From contig JAPORH010000141.1 in NCBI GenBank assembly GCA_026710325.1, positions 1-46,618 on the forward strand: a stretch of DNA of 46,618 nucleotides. Direction: 5' to 3'. The notes under the pieces were generated by a model. That model was given only the letters and a program-made list of their open reading frames with translations. It ran no database searches and had not been told where the DNA came from. A program made the position numbers and the translations under genes. Source of the stretch: Litoreibacter sp. Its GTDB lineage: Bacteria; Pseudomonadota; Alphaproteobacteria; Rhodobacterales; Rhodobacteraceae. This document shows, piece after piece, positions 6,841 through 14,883 of this stretch (its first letter is position 1; every line of letters starts with the position of its first letter).

Positions 6841-7710
6841 ATGTCGATCACCCTGCTACGCTCCCTCATTGCCGTGGCCGAGACCGGCAGCTTCATGGAG
6901 GCCGCCGCGCGGGTGCATGTCAGCCAGGCCGCCGTGGGCCAGCAGATGAAACGGCTGGAAGAGGTGTTGGGTATTGCGCTGTTTGACCGCGACCGCAAAT
7001 CACCCCGGCTGAACCCTTTGGGTCAGTCGCTAGTACCGAAAGCCCGCGCGGTGGTCGCCGCCTATGACGGGTTGTTGGACGACGTCAGCGGTGAGGCGCA
7101 GCTCATAGGGGAGATGTCTTTGGGCGCGGTCCCCTCCACTCTCGGCTCGCTGGTGCCGCGCGCGGTCAAACAATTGGTCGCGGCCTATCCCGGCCTGCGC
7201 ATTCGCGTCGTTCCCGGCCTGTCAGATGATTTGCGCGAACAGGTCGAACGCGGAGCATTGGACGCAGCGCTGCTTGGCCCGTTCGAGGCATCGGGCGGCG
7301 TTATGCTCTGGCAGCCCGTGGCGCAGGAAGCCTTTGTCCTCATCGCAGCACCGGAGGTTGCTGGCAACGATCCGCGCGCCTTACTGCGGGAGCATCCCTA
7401 TATTCGCCACACAAGACGCGCCGCCGCTGGCCGTTTGGCAGATAACTGGCTGGCACGCGAGAAGATCGTCGTAACCGCGGCTATGGAGATGGAAACTCTG
7501 GAGGCCGTCACATCCATGGTCACCCACGGCCTCGGCATCTCAGTGGTCCCGGACATGTGCGTCCCAGAGCCCGCCTTCACCGCCCTGCGCCGGCTCACTC
7601 TGGAAGGAGCCCCCACCCGCGAACTGGGCCTGCTCAGCCGCGCCGACAGCCCGAAGCGGCGGTTGATCGACGGGCTATTGGCGGAGGTGTCTGGGGTGAT
7701 TGCGCGGTAA
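6841..7710 (+). CDS. LysR-family transcriptional regulator
   Basis: 289-residue LTTR. The N-terminal HTH (ITLLRSLIAVAETGSFMEAAARVHVSQAAVGQQMKRLEE region, residues ~3-60) matches the family consensus, followed by a periplasmic-binding-like effector domain with GEMSLGAVPSTLGSLVPRAV and GLGISVVPD. The start lies 3 nt after the iclR stop with no separate SD, so it is probably translated by coupling. LTTRs are normally divergent from their targets; this one is downstream of another regulator, so its target may be the same catabolic genes or elsewhere. Its TAA stop (7708-7710) directly abuts the first of two structured repeat elements. Confidence 0.92.
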   Translation: MSITLLRSLIAVAETGSFMEAAARVHVSQAAVGQQMKRLEEVLGIALFDRDRKSPRLNPLGQSLVPKARAVVAAYDGLLDDVSGEAQLIGEMSLGAVPSTLGSLVPRAVKQLVAAYPGLRIRVVPGLSDDLREQVERGALDAALLGPFEASGGVMLWQPVAQEAFVLIAAPEVAGNDPRALLREHPYIRHTRRAAAGRLADNWLAREKIVVTAAMEMETLEAVTSMVTHGLGISVVPDMCVPEPAFTALRRLTLEGAPTRELGLLSRADSPKRRLIDGLLAEVSGVIAR

Positions 7711-7875
7711 GCCGGGCCTCGCCAGACCGGAGGATGGCGATCTGATGGTCATTCTGCAGCGCTTTATCTGCGCAAAGCACTTCTTCCATAGATTTGATGC
7801 GCACCGCTACCAAATCGCCAGCCCTCCGGGCCGGTCTGGCGATGCCCGGCGCGCTTTGCGCTTGATTCCGGGCTT
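7711..7875. repeat. Structured element copy 1 (165 bp, paired inverted hairpins)
   Basis: The element begins GCCGGGC right after the lysR stop and ends CTTGATTCCGGGCTT. Its ends form an inverted repeat: 7711-7730 and 7831-7850 match 19 of 20. On the plus strand TCGCCA (7719-7724) pairs with TGGCGA (7735-7740). On the minus strand a longer stem pairs 7837-7843 with 7814-7820 around a 16-nt loop containing its own GCCC/GGGC stem. Beside it a second stem, GCCCGG/CCGGGC, lies immediately 3' of the barstar gene. A homologous copy of 166 bp lies at 8274-8439. The role is unknown; a paired REP/BIME-like element or cassette boundary is possible. Confidence 0.75.
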
Positions 7876-7887
7876 TCCCTGTTCGCG

Positions 7888-8217
7888 TTAGTTGTAGAAG
7901 GCTAAGAACAAAACTGGCGTTTGACCAATCTCAATCCGCCTGAAATTCACAAAGGCGGCACACTCAATCAAGGCGTCGTATATCTCTGGGCAGCGGTTCT
8001 TCAGCCCTTTCGCATATTTAAGATGTAGGGTTACCGCGCCGCCTTCCTCGACGCAGACTTTTGAGAAAGGTTCGTCTAGGGATGTCATGCAATCAATCCA
8101 AGCATCCATGTTTCGACCATAGAAGTCGGGGAACCCAAACGCCTCCGCGAAGGTATCGTGAAAGCTCGACCATCCTTCGATAAGCCGACAATCGACAGCT
8201 ACTGATCTGGTCAACAT
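7888..8217 (-). CDS. Barstar-family protein (ribonuclease inhibitor / immunity-like)
   Basis: 109 residues from ATG 8217, which has GGAG at the right distance; a longer in-frame extension to 8340 runs into the structured repeat and is rejected. The barstar fold signature is visible: WSSFHDTFAEAFGFPDFYGR followed by NMDAWIDCM, i.e. the acidic inhibitory helix region that binds barnase-type RNases. Cytosolic, no signal peptide. In known systems barstar neutralises a cognate RNase toxin. Here no barnase/RNase toxin gene lies beside it, so it may be an orphan immunity gene or protect against toxins from neighbours (inference). It sits between two homologous structured elements. Confidence 0.82.
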   Translation of the reverse strand: MLTRSVAVDCRLIEGWSSFHDTFAEAFGFPDFYGRNMDAWIDCMTSLDEPFSKVCVEEGGAVTLHLKYAKGLKNRCPEIYDALIECAAFVNFRRIEIGQTPVLFLAFYN

Positions 8218-8273
8218 CTTGGCTCCAATGTGTTTTGCTATACACACATGCACCGAAACACTGCGCCAGCCAA

Positions 8274-8439
8274 GCCGGGCCAACACCTGACCGTGGGCGG
8301 GTGTTCCAACCTCACTTCGACAGCGCTTGATGGCAGCCAATCACATTTCACGTTCATGCGGCGCGCTTCATCAACAAGAACACCTGCCCGTGCGGGCGGT
8401 CAGGTGTTGGCCCGGCGCCTTCGGCTTGATTCCGGGCTT
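8274..8439. repeat. Structured element copy 2 (166 bp, paired inverted hairpins)
   Basis: Same ends as copy 1 (GCCGGGC ... CTTGATTCCGGGCTT), nearly the same length, and the same internal CAGCGCTT at the same offset. Its terminal inverted repeat is perfect over 20 bp (8274-8293 with 8397-8416). The variable stems are different in sequence but still paired: AACACC/GGTGTT on the plus strand (8282-8287, 8300-8305) and AACACCT/AGGTGTT (8379-8385, 8402-8408) around a 16-nt loop. Compared with copy 1, three base pairs of the 7-bp stem are changed on both sides. It lies just 3' of the 8445-8810 gene and 5' of the barstar gene (both minus strand). Confidence 0.8.
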
Positions 8440-8444
8440 GTTCC

Positions 8445-8810
8445 TCAGTTTTGTCGCATCAGCGAATAGTATTCGTCGCGCACATCTTCATCTACGGCGA
8501 CGCCACGATTTCCTCCATAGAGCCTGTCGTTTTGGTCTTTGCGAGGTCCAGAAATCCAGTAGAAATCGCCGCTCTCCGTTTCGAAGTAATTTGCCTTATA
8601 GCCAGCGCCTTTGAGGCCCTGGAACCTTAGTCCTTTATAGTAAAGAGTCTTCCCCGACTTTGAGAAGTACACGCGCCCGATCACAGCATCTCCTTCAAGA
8701 CCTTCAGACTTGCATTCGATGTACATAATTCGCGAACGAGACAGCCGAAATTCTTTCGGGAGCGCTGCATCCTGATCGATTTTCGCTTTCCAGTGATCGG
8801 CATGTCTCAA
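8445..8810 (-). CDS. Conserved hypothetical small protein (RIMYIE... family)
   Basis: 121 residues if translated from TTG 8810 (GGAG lies 11 nt upstream). An ATG at 8726 would give a 93-residue protein starting at MYIECKS. Conserved-looking blocks are SRIMYIECKS, IGRVYFSKSGKTLYYKGL, GYKANYF, YWISGPRKD and a Gly-rich LYGGNRGV near the C-terminus. I recall a family of bacterial small proteins with this pattern, sometimes mislabelled as 1-deoxyxylulose-5-phosphate synthase; nothing here supports that label. The fold is probably beta-rich and cytosolic, with no membrane segment. The preceding residues RSR match homologs as I remember them, but which start is used is uncertain. Function unknown. 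Confidence 0.72.
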   Translation of the reverse strand: MRHADHWKAKIDQDAALPKEFRLSRSRIMYIECKSEGLEGDAVIGRVYFSKSGKTLYYKGLRFQGLKGAGYKANYFETESGDFYWISGPRKDQNDRLYGGNRGVAVDEDVRDEYYSLMRQN

Positions 8811-8986
8811 GAAAGAGGCTCCAAGCTACGTTTAGCTATGAAATACTAAGAATGAAGCAGCTCCACAACGACTGTCCGCTGATCAAAAAGAAAAGAAAGT
8901 CTTTACCAAGCCTAAAATCACTTTGATTTGCCAAGCCTCTCCTTTTGCACGATACCCTGCCCAAAGACACGCAAGAGGAGTCCCAA

Positions 8987-9484
8987 ATGGACATCAATGA
9001 CACCATCGTGGACGCCTATGTGCGCCACAAGGTTGAGTTCATCACCACTGTGCCCTGCAAGCAGCTCGGCGGGGTGATCGAGAAATGTGAGGCGCATCCT
9101 GATATCTACCACATCCCGTCCAACAAAGAGGATGAGGGGATGGGGCTTTGCGCAGGCGCTTTCATGGGCGGCAAGCGCTCCTCCATCATCATGCAGAACA
9201 CCGCCATCGGGGTCACGATCAACACGCTGGTGACGTTGACGCAATATTACCGCATGCCGCTGCCGATGCTGATCTCCTACCGCGGGGAGCTGGGCGAGCC
9301 TGTGGCCTGCCAAGCAGAGATGGCGGTGCACACCAAGGCGTTGCTCGCGCAGCTCAACATCCCGACCTACCATTTCCACAAACAGGCCGATGCCGACGAG
9401 TTCGACAAAATCCTGCAATACACGTTCATGTGCAACAAGCCGGTCGCCATCCTGACCGACGCATCCTTCTGGGGAGGCTACTGA
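8987..9484 (+). CDS. comD: Sulfopyruvate decarboxylase, alpha subunit
   Basis: Thiamine-diphosphate enzyme subunit; with the beta subunit it decarboxylates 3-sulfopyruvate to sulfoacetaldehyde. The 165-residue length matches split ComD. Blocks VEFITTVPCKQLGG, the ThDP-activating Glu region in SNKEDEGMGLCAGAFMGG, and AVHTKALLAQLNIP fit the pyrimidine-binding domain of sulfopyruvate/phosphonopyruvate decarboxylases. I start at ATG 8987 (AAGAGGAG site); an in-frame ATG 42 nt upstream lacks a ribosome site. It is followed after 1 nt by the beta subunit and then by slcC, which favours sulfopyruvate over phosphonopyruvate. The next enzyme of the route, Xsc, is not in the window. Confidence 0.85.
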   Translation: MDINDTIVDAYVRHKVEFITTVPCKQLGGVIEKCEAHPDIYHIPSNKEDEGMGLCAGAFMGGKRSSIIMQNTAIGVTINTLVTLTQYYRMPLPMLISYRGELGEPVACQAEMAVHTKALLAQLNIPTYHFHKQADADEFDKILQYTFMCNKPVAILTDASFWGGY

Positions 9485-13125: not shown

Positions 13126-14883
13126 ATGCCAGCCACAATCTCCAGAGCCGACTACGCCGCCATGTTTGGCCCCACTGTGGGCGATAAGGTGCGCCTTGCA
13201 GATACCGATCTGATCATCGAGGTGGAGCGCGATTTGATTGCGGAACGGGCGGGGGCGGCCTCGGGCGGCACCGGGGCCAACGCGCTGTCCTATGGCGAGG
13301 AGGTCAAATTTGGCGGCGGCAAGGTGATCCGTGACGGGATGGGGCAGTCTCAGGTGACGCGCGCGAATGGCGCGGTGGACACTGTCATTACCAATGCGCT
13401 GATCGTGGACCATACCGGCATCTACAAGGCCGATATCGGGCTGAAAAACGGGCGCATCCACAAGATCGGCAAGGCGGGCAACCCGGACACGCAGCCCGGC
13501 GTCGATATCATCGTGGGGCCCGGCACGGAGGCGATTGCGGGCGAAGGCCGGATCGTTACGGCAGGCGGGTTTGACAGCCATATCCATTTCATCTGCCCGC
13601 AGCAGATTGAGGATGCGTTGCACTCCGGGCTGACCACGATGCTGGGCGGCGGCACCGGCCCCGCGCATGGCACGCTGGCGACGACTTGTACCCCCGGTCC
13701 TTGGCATATCGGACGGATGATGCAGGCGGTGGACGGGGTGCCGATGAATATCGGCTTCGCGGGCAAGGGTAACGCCTCGCAACCCGAGGCTCTGGTGGAG
13801 CAGGTGAAAGGCGGGGCTTGCGCCATGAAGCTGCATGAGGATTGGGGCACAACGCCGGGTGCCATTGATTGCTGCCTCTCGGTCGCCGACGAGATGGATG
13901 TGCAGGTCATGATCCACACCGATACGCTGAATGAAAGCGGGTTTGTGGAGAATACAGTTGCCGCCATGAAGGGGCGGACGATCCATGCGTTCCACACCGA
14001 GGGCGCGGGCGGGGGCCATGCGCCCGACATCATCAAAATCTGCGGCGACGCGAATGTCCTGCCGTCTTCCACCAACCCGACGCGGCCCTTCACGGTGAAC
14101 ACGCTGGAGGAGCATCTGGATATGCTGATGGTGTGCCACCACCTCGACAAATCCATTCCCGAAGACGTGGCCTTTGCCGAGAGCCGCATTAGGCGGGAGA
14201 CCATTGCGGCGGAGGATATCCTGCACGACATGGGCGCGTTCTCGATCATCGCCTCGGACAGCCAGGCCATGGGCCGCGTGGGCGAAGTGATCATCCGCAC
14301 CTGGCAGACCGCCGACAAGATGAAGAAGCAGCGCGGGCGGCTCAGCGAAGAACAAGGCGAAAACGACAATATGCGCGTGCGCCGCTACATCGCGAAATAC
14401 ACGATCAACCCGGCCATCGCGCATGGGGTAAGCCGCGAAATCGGCTCCCTTGAGGAAGGTAAACGCGCCGATCTGTGCCTCTGGTCGCCAGCATTCTTTG
14501 GCGTGAAGCCCGAGATGGTGCTGATGGCAGGCTCAATCGTTTGCGCGCAGATGGGCGACCCGAACGCCTCCATCCCTACGCCGCAGCCGGTCTACACGCG
14601 GCCTATGTTCGGCTCCATGGGGCGCGCGGTGGAGCATTCCGCGGTGGTCTTCACCTCCGCCGCAGGCATGGAGGAAGATGTGCGCGGAAAACTGGGGCTG
14701 GCCAAGGAATGCATCGCGGTTGAAAACACGCGCGGCATTGGCAAAAAGGACCTCGAGCTCAACGACGCGCTGCCCGAGGTGGAGGTCGACCCTGAGACCT
14801 ACGAGGTCCGCGCCGATGGCGAGCTTTTGACCTGCCAACCGGCAGAAGAGCTGCCCATGGCGCAGCGCTATTTCCTGTTCTGA
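13126..14883 (+). CDS. ureC: Urease alpha (catalytic) subunit
   Basis: Nickel-containing catalytic subunit. All key residues are present: His152 and His154 in DSHIH, the carbamylated Lys235 in MKLHEDWG, His in [11 protein letters not shown] and in [11 protein letters not shown], the flap Cys/His in MVCHHL and the Asp in [10 protein letters not shown]. It has 585 residues; compared with the 567-residue Klebsiella enzyme as I recall it, an extra ~16 residues ([16 protein letters not shown] region) lie between EVERDL and [10 protein letters not shown], and the catalytic residues are all shifted by 18. The rest aligns end to end through AQRYFLF. ATG 13126 has AAGGAAC upstream. Confidence 0.97.

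Follow-up and report, generated by a model that had tools for sequence, protein, structure and literature searches.

Our data show that two related elements in a 46,618-nucleotide stretch of DNA from Litoreibacter sp. (GenBank assembly GCA_026710325.1, contig JAPORH010000141.1; referred to as the window) belong to a real, widespread and structured repeat family, which has so far been found only in the Rhodobacteraceae. The explanation that we consider fairly probable is that of a dispersed intergenic palindrome of about 167 nt, similar to the REP and BIME repeats, the copies of which are spread by a putative mobiliser and, once settled, are kept as folded elements at the 3' ends of genes. That the window contains two homologous elements of about 165 bp with shared ends (e1 and e2; table 1), as originally predicted, is borne out by direct reading, by a search for complementary arms and by the family model, and their homology is to be expected because both belong to a set of at least 19 copies in the same genome.

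Over the 25-nt end that they have in common, e1 and e2 agree at 88%, and the predicted internal motif CAGCGCTT is present in both, at 7757-7764 in e1 and 8321-8328 in e2, i.e. at offsets of 46 and 47 from the element starts. The outer arms are 20 nt long, with 95% complementarity in e1 (7711-7730/7831-7850) and 100% in e2 (8274-8293/8397-8416). Both copies fold more stably than dinucleotide shuffles, with z values of -5.3 and -4.1 for the minus strand with DNA energies and of -3.4 and -5.7 for the plus strand with RNA energies. The local 7-bp stem of the minus strand reads ATCGCCA/TGGCGAT in e1 and AACACCT/AGGTGTT in e2, with a loop of 16 nt starting with GACCG in either copy; three positions differ and all three are indeed compensated on the partner strand. 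This stem is real, but it is only one of two mutually exclusive pairings, the other being a long nested hairpin.

Table 1. Elements, their structural blocks and neighbouring genes in the window.
Feature	Position	Strand	Basis or remarks
LysR-family regulator	6841..7710	+	PF03466/PF00126; convergent with the array; stop codon adjoins the 3' end of e1 (minus-strand reading)
Element copy 1 (e1)	7709..7875	-	covariance model R1, 149.2 bits, E 3e-32; arm complementarity
e1 5' hairpin X:x	7844..7873	-	same helix A in the family alignment
Barstar-family ORF between e1 and e2	7888..8235	-	PF01337, E 1.7e-15
Element copy 2 (e2)	8273..8439	-	covariance model R1, 172.6 bits, E 8e-38; arm complementarity
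e2 block y (CGGTCAGGTGTT) then terminal X copy (GGCCCGGC)	8274..8293	-	arms and alignment
e2 block Y' (GAACACCCGCCC)	8295..8306	-	family alignment
e2 unpaired core	8321..8347	-	partly conserved in family alignments
e2 block y' (GGGCAGGTGTTC)	8378..8389	-	partners: Y (local hairpin E) or Y' (helix D)
e2 block Y (AACACCTGACCG)	8397..8408	-	partners: y' locally, y at long range
e2 5' hairpin X:x (GCCCGG ... CCGGGC), GAATC in loop	8410..8437	-	helix A pairing
Orphan ORF, directly upstream of e2	8445..8810	-	without Pfam or NCBIfam match
Right-hand neighbour ORF of the variable site	8945..9484	+	28 bp from the LysR gene in G165 (aligned parts); presumably decarboxylase-like

The place occupied by the array is variable. 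The LysR gene is also the neighbour of the empty site in G165, from which the whole block of e1, barstar, e2 and orphan ORF is absent, and at the corresponding place (7711-8900) another ORF, about 225 aa long, is present in G153 and G160. At a site on contig C52 of the window's genome, the genes flanking the element (pyrD- and MATE-like, named by eye) are 214 bp apart, as compared with 37 and 39 bp in the aligned parts of G150 and G159, and other species have an extra ORF there; in 20 stretches from relatives, neither the window site nor the C52 site gave a match at E<=0.1. Homologues of the orphan ORF were found at 20 loci in several phyla, its relatives being spread among Rhodobacteraceae, Hyphomonadaceae, Sulfurovum, Acidobacteria, Verrucomicrobia, Arcobacter and actinobacterial plasmids; judging from this scatter over distant taxa, the ORF has probably moved horizontally. 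Elsewhere in the window, the stretch 13327-13614 on the minus strand matches Rfam family RF02514 (5_ureB_sRNA) with 113 bits, the gathering score being 40.

The family was delineated with a covariance model (R1) built on 13 copies, 11 from the window's genome, where blastn with e2 gave divergent e2-like copies on other contigs, and 2 from L035 (L169 and L171 were left out of our own counts as duplicates of the L035 copies). In the window's genome, this model produced 33 rows at E<=0.1, some of which represent the palindrome read on the other strand; 19 copies exceeded 70 bits, and these are distributed over 15 contigs. Among relatives, 29 of 61 genomes were positive at E<=0.001 (18 of 21 in the same genus and 11 of 16 from the rest of the family), and none of the 24 genomes from other families matched at this threshold. 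Family- and class-wide surveys with stricter filters and few candidates scored per genome found the element in 73 of 149 genera of Rhodobacteraceae (one genome per genus, E<=1e-6) and in 3 of 190 genomes of the class (E<=1e-5), all three being Rhodobacteraceae and one of them the window's genome. In these surveys as well as among the relatives, copy numbers are lower bounds for genomes in which the maximum of scored candidates was reached. G018 has at least 150 matches; among the more than 90 listed, all reach at least 70 bits at separate places, with many in pairs or triples. The outcome that had been named as speaking against the original prediction, i.e. that a genome search would find these two copies only, has thus fallen away. 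With regard to a split or autonomous version, a model of the left half alone (R2) found largely the places already given by the full model (nine genomes, compared by eye for the matches listed). Among 72,556 plasmid records there was no match to e1 and one partial match to e2, e1 had no match in phages, and Rfam had no match over e1 or e2 at gathering, the elements of L008 and L035 likewise being without a match at E<=5.

Both single copies and short arrays are found, and subtypes can be distinguished. An array examined in G018 (L335 604-1485), the one from which the period is taken, has three elements in tandem 294-nt units, with identities to the first unit of 83% and 65%. In the window's genome, a row of three elements belonging to different subtypes is spaced by about 20-30 nt (G000:C217:12835-13421, i.e. 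L047 4936-5522), and short forms of 83-88 nt (L071, L072, L077, L080 (from base 1501)) keep the hairpin order and have no core. The 5' loop contains GANTC, which is the CcrM site, in 59 of 103 copies and in 34 of 35 G018 copies, and GTTAAC takes its place in 23 of the 103. This GTTAAC subtype (G153, G165) lies inside a larger repeat with shared flanks, e.g. AAACGGCAGCTTCGTC (flanks compared in L185, L187, L209, L220, L225, L232 and L235).

On its strand, the unit of about 167 nt is ordered as a 5' hairpin X:x, blocks Y and y', a partly conserved unpaired core, blocks Y' and y and often a second X. Complementarity is kept for Y:y', y':Y' and Y:y; since y' is unable to pair with Y and Y' together, two exclusive folds are kept. 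This pattern of conserved complementarity demonstrates that the strand can fold into two neighbouring hairpins or, with Y paired to y and y' to Y', into a single long nested one. Across 105 distinct copies, 94.1% of 2695 pair cells of the model structure hold, 17 of 26 pairs have changed on both sides (a number reached in 0 of 500 shuffles), and double-changed cells amount to 295 compared with 76.5 in shuffles, all measured on the same alignment (A3) that had been fitted to helices A, C and part of D; sliding the partner columns by 1-3 lets pairing fall to 34-50%. Helix A (X:x) is paired in 545 of 555 cells, with four Watson-Crick pair types at one position. Helix E (Y:y'), which is the local stem of the original prediction and lies outside the model, is 96.1% paired with 77 double-changed cells versus 20.9 in shuffles, yet its number of double-changed pairs is not above shuffles (4 versus 3.0; 113 of 500). 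A four-way correlation links blocks Y, y', Y' and y. The right-hand local hairpin Y':y (helix F) is weaker, with 76% paired, and the pairing of x with the terminal X (helix B) reaches 72% at a badly aligned 3' end, the terminal X being absent from many G018 copies.

An important question is which form of the element is selected, and here the wobble pairs are informative. In a double-stranded cruciform, a G.T on one strand is an A.C on the other, so equal tolerance of both would be expected if the duplex form were selected. When each cluster is counted once, helix E shows 18 G.T versus 2 A.C in 26 clusters at 75% identity (p 4e-4) and 23 versus 2 in 79 clusters at 85% identity. In helices A and D (the latter without two of its twelve pairs, a weak one and the last) and in the GACCG part of C, the two are balanced. 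The first seven C pairs favour A.C (47 versus 13 at 85%; 23 versus 12 at 75%, p 0.09), as does helix F (42 versus 24 at 85%; 24 versus 17 at 75%), and in helices A, C and D pooled, A.C exceeds G.T by 87 to 55 cells (p 0.009), an excess driven by these first seven C pairs. The lean of the C and F pairs towards A.C therefore suggests the long hairpin to be the weaker pairing on the modelled strand. Overall, this pattern points to the modelled strand being selected as a single strand, which may be RNA or single-stranded DNA, with E as the stricter pairing.

Gene positions are from our own calls, and several of the 'neighbours' are hundreds of bases away. Among 106 copies, a single one extends more than 40 nt into a called gene. 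For 61 copies with both neighbours called (45 of the 106 dropped out, 1 overlapping a gene and 44 without a called neighbour on at least one side), the flanking genes are convergent in 23, co-directional in 32 and divergent in 6 cases. Relative to 41 control stretches, i.e. the window plus 40 ten-kb samples of two genomes, in which convergent gaps make up 13% and divergent gaps 35% of intergenic bases, convergent pairs are enriched (p ~1e-6) and divergent pairs depleted (p ~9e-6); co-directional pairs reveal no strand bias (18 versus 14). For 9 of 49 copies with a right-hand convergent gene, no more than 2 nt separate the stop codon of that gene from the trimmed element end, and 18 of 52 left-hand genes on the strand of the element end within 30 nt. 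A scan of 20 neighbouring ORFs gave Pfam matches for 8, to different ordinary families (DXP synthase, NUDIX, carboxyltransferase, FAD-binding dehydrogenase, ABC protein, tryptophan synthase alpha, glycosyltransferase and SDR), and none matched a transposase or integrase family; the other 12 have no Pfam match, so accessory neighbours are possible. An early impression from G153 that orientation follows the replichores was given up, because strand flips did not coincide with GC-skew changes in 20 ten-kb samples; hand counts of leading-strand co-orientation among the copies listed (8 of 13 in G153, 13 of 18 in G009) are weak and uncorrected.

How copies arise and persist can be read from sites shared between species. 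Each copy tested at sites 1, 3, 4 and 6 is most closely related to its counterpart at that site in another species (L087, which shares the site-1 flank with an element only 0.68-0.74 identical, was left out of the site-1 test), whereas for sites 2 and 5 the closest kin of a copy is not its counterpart next to the same gene. The alternative idea that the arms co-evolve by intrachromosomal copying thus does not describe the rule at sites 1, 3, 4 and 6, and sites 2 and 5 fail to show same-site kinship. Core identity between copies at matching sites is 0.80-1.0 at sites 1, 3, 4, 5 and 6 and 0.56-0.85 at site 2. As a trace of recent copying, G153 has two copies 0.37 Mb apart that are identical over 168 nt, with 33 nt of flank similarity detected by blast and some further likeness on the right. 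In G166, a partial second copy stands between the element and the gene that directly adjoins that element in G163. No convincing target duplication appeared in 448 combinations of length and offset with 57 usable copies (L209 and L223 also being left out).

Constraint was assessed at sites 3, 4 and 6 by comparing element identity with identity at fourfold-degenerate positions of the adjoining gene. The element is the more conserved at site 4 (149/165 versus 29/40, p 0.007; 151/164 versus 28/39, p 0.0014), at site 6 (156/167 versus 35/50, p 5e-5) and in one comparison at site 3 (151/167 versus 45/60, p 0.007). Two other comparisons at site 3 do not reveal constraint, one with 150/167 versus 25/32 (p 0.08) and one running in the opposite direction with 139/167 versus 32/37 (p 0.81); a third pair at site 4 gave 152/164 versus 35/40, without a p value. 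Slower evolution than at fourfold sites is thus seen in 4 of 6 tested comparisons, two of the four supporting ones sharing a species and therefore not being independent. Together with covariation and the one-sided wobble of hairpin E, this supports the earlier proposal that the fold is under selection.

Could the element be a structured RNA in many copies, with the transcript of the modelled strand acting in trans or as a 3'-UTR module and the core as its working part? The one-sided wobble of hairpin E (18 G.T versus 2 A.C, 26 clusters), the high core identity at sites 1, 3, 4, 5 and 6 and the closeness of copies to stop codons are in line with such a role, but the orientation towards neighbouring genes is unbiased (18 versus 14), upstream of the elements there is little conservation beyond one adjoining base, Rfam has no match, four short forms of about 85 nt lack the core and site-2 copies differ in it; overall, we regard such an RNA as unlikely. 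A bidirectional intrinsic terminator repeated at gene ends would match the strong hairpins as well as the enrichment between convergent genes and near stop codons, yet the 10 nt past the element contain on average 2.6 or 1.9 T, depending on the strand, with six or more T in just 3 of 105 and 2 of 105 copies by strand, and a terminator has no need for a conserved core or four co-varying blocks, which makes this reading very unlikely. In agreement with the original prediction, the element is therefore no simple terminator, nor do its varied neighbours and rare T-tracts allow it to be the terminator of one repeated gene family. An integron attC site has a strand-specific fold and forms a large, imperfect palindrome at the 3' side of an accessory ORF, and in the window the comparison is attractive: about 5-12 nt past each accessory ORF there is an element with the strand of that ORF, as if ORF and element moved as a unit and the window were a two-cassette array. 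The absence of the whole block from G165, several sites that cannot be aligned past the element on the other flank and the 12 of 20 neighbouring ORFs without Pfam match would also fit. Against this, following the orphan ORF (one of the two window ORFs) revealed an element at only 1 of 20 loci with a homologue, and that within the same genus; in G153 the element stands beside the orphan ORF in the opposite orientation, the G155 match lies on a contig without a listed element, the eight Pfam-matched neighbours are ordinary metabolic or transport families, and no conserved attC-type core was noticed by eye at the ends, one subtype having GTTAAC in the 5' loop. Because the orphan ORF is unlinked elsewhere and Pfam-matched neighbours are ordinary, a cassette site is rejected as the general rule and appears highly improbable.

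The element has what characterizes REP/BIME repeats in a broad sense, i.e. many copies, intergenic location, kept imperfect-palindrome pairing and a preference for 3' ends and convergent pairs. REPs are 20-40 bp long, and their CGTC group, in which the stems measure 8-9 bp, the loops 4-5 and the end is CGTC, TGTC or CCTC, occurs in all orders of alpha-Proteobacteria without a dedicated transposase, Rhodobacter, Roseobacter and Ruegeria not being named in that source (Di Nocera et al. 2013, PMC3733652). As far as described there, these repeats likewise are multicopy intergenic palindromes by stop codons, between convergent and co-directional genes, but the Rhodobacteraceae unit differs by its ~167 nt, three helices and alternative pairings, and tagged hairpins are of the CGTC type in 0 of 103 and of the GTAG type in 2 of 103 copies. 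A REPIN, in which two inverted REPs are mobilised by the Y1 tyrosine transposase RAYT, would share the two inverted, related hairpin blocks, the dispersal, the 3'-end location and the lack of a detected target duplication. Here, however, the halves are unequal rather than two equivalent inverted hairpins (E 96% versus F 76% paired), an extra 5' hairpin and a conserved core are present, and no RAYT was found in the genus. A search for PF01797 was negative for all 21 genomes of the genus, of which three are 57-82% complete, as well as for copy-rich G002, G009 and G010, and gave partial matches in copy-rich G015. Since PF01797 was not found and the right hairpin is weak, a RAYT-driven REPIN is rejected and hardly credible. 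A MITE of a DDE transposon would be expected to show target-site duplications, and no convincing ones emerged from the 57 usable copies. Thus, by its size, core, alternative folds, missing tags and the RAYT not found, the element is not a REP or REPIN as defined, whereas it works like the REP/BIME repeats as judged from its copy number, its placement and the absence of a strand bias. The original prediction could name no known element, in line with these comparisons.

For the REP/BIME-like palindrome, we infer the steps from fold to function as follows. Copies would spread as a non-autonomous element, the folded single strand of which is recognised by a putative mobiliser other than RAYT that leaves no target duplication. 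They may survive at the least harmful places, between gene 3' ends, where purifying selection would keep settled copies as folded 3'-end elements that shield convergent transcripts, possibly via stabilisation of RNA ends or limited read-through. That this represents a new class, with a folded single strand (ssDNA or RNA), two selected competing conformations, copying around chromosomes by a mobiliser unrelated to RAYT that leaves no target duplication and ~150 copies in one genome, is a tentative and rather doubtful proposition. In the open-access literature searched, the family is not described in Rhodobacteraceae, and it was not found in passages of PMC5107571 and PMC2864571. The main risk to novelty is a possible link to CIR, an intergenic repeat of an alpha-proteobacterium (PMC10969869). 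By its description, CIR is similarly intergenic and alpha-proteobacterial, and GANTC, present in 59 of 103 copies here, may be a further likeness; a possible difference is GTTAAC in the 5' loop of 23 of 103 Rhodobacteraceae copies.

Overall, a major marine bacterial group thus has a searchable repeat family. Its covariation is sufficiently strong for the fold to be defined, and its wobble pattern distinguishes a single-strand from a double-strand function. If the family is the Rhodobacteraceae counterpart of CIR, the CIR repeats would be tied to a defined structure. With 0 to ~150 copies per genome among relatives, it also provides a test bed for REP-like spread where RAYT was not found, as well as for the question of whether settled copies serve their host at gene 3' ends.
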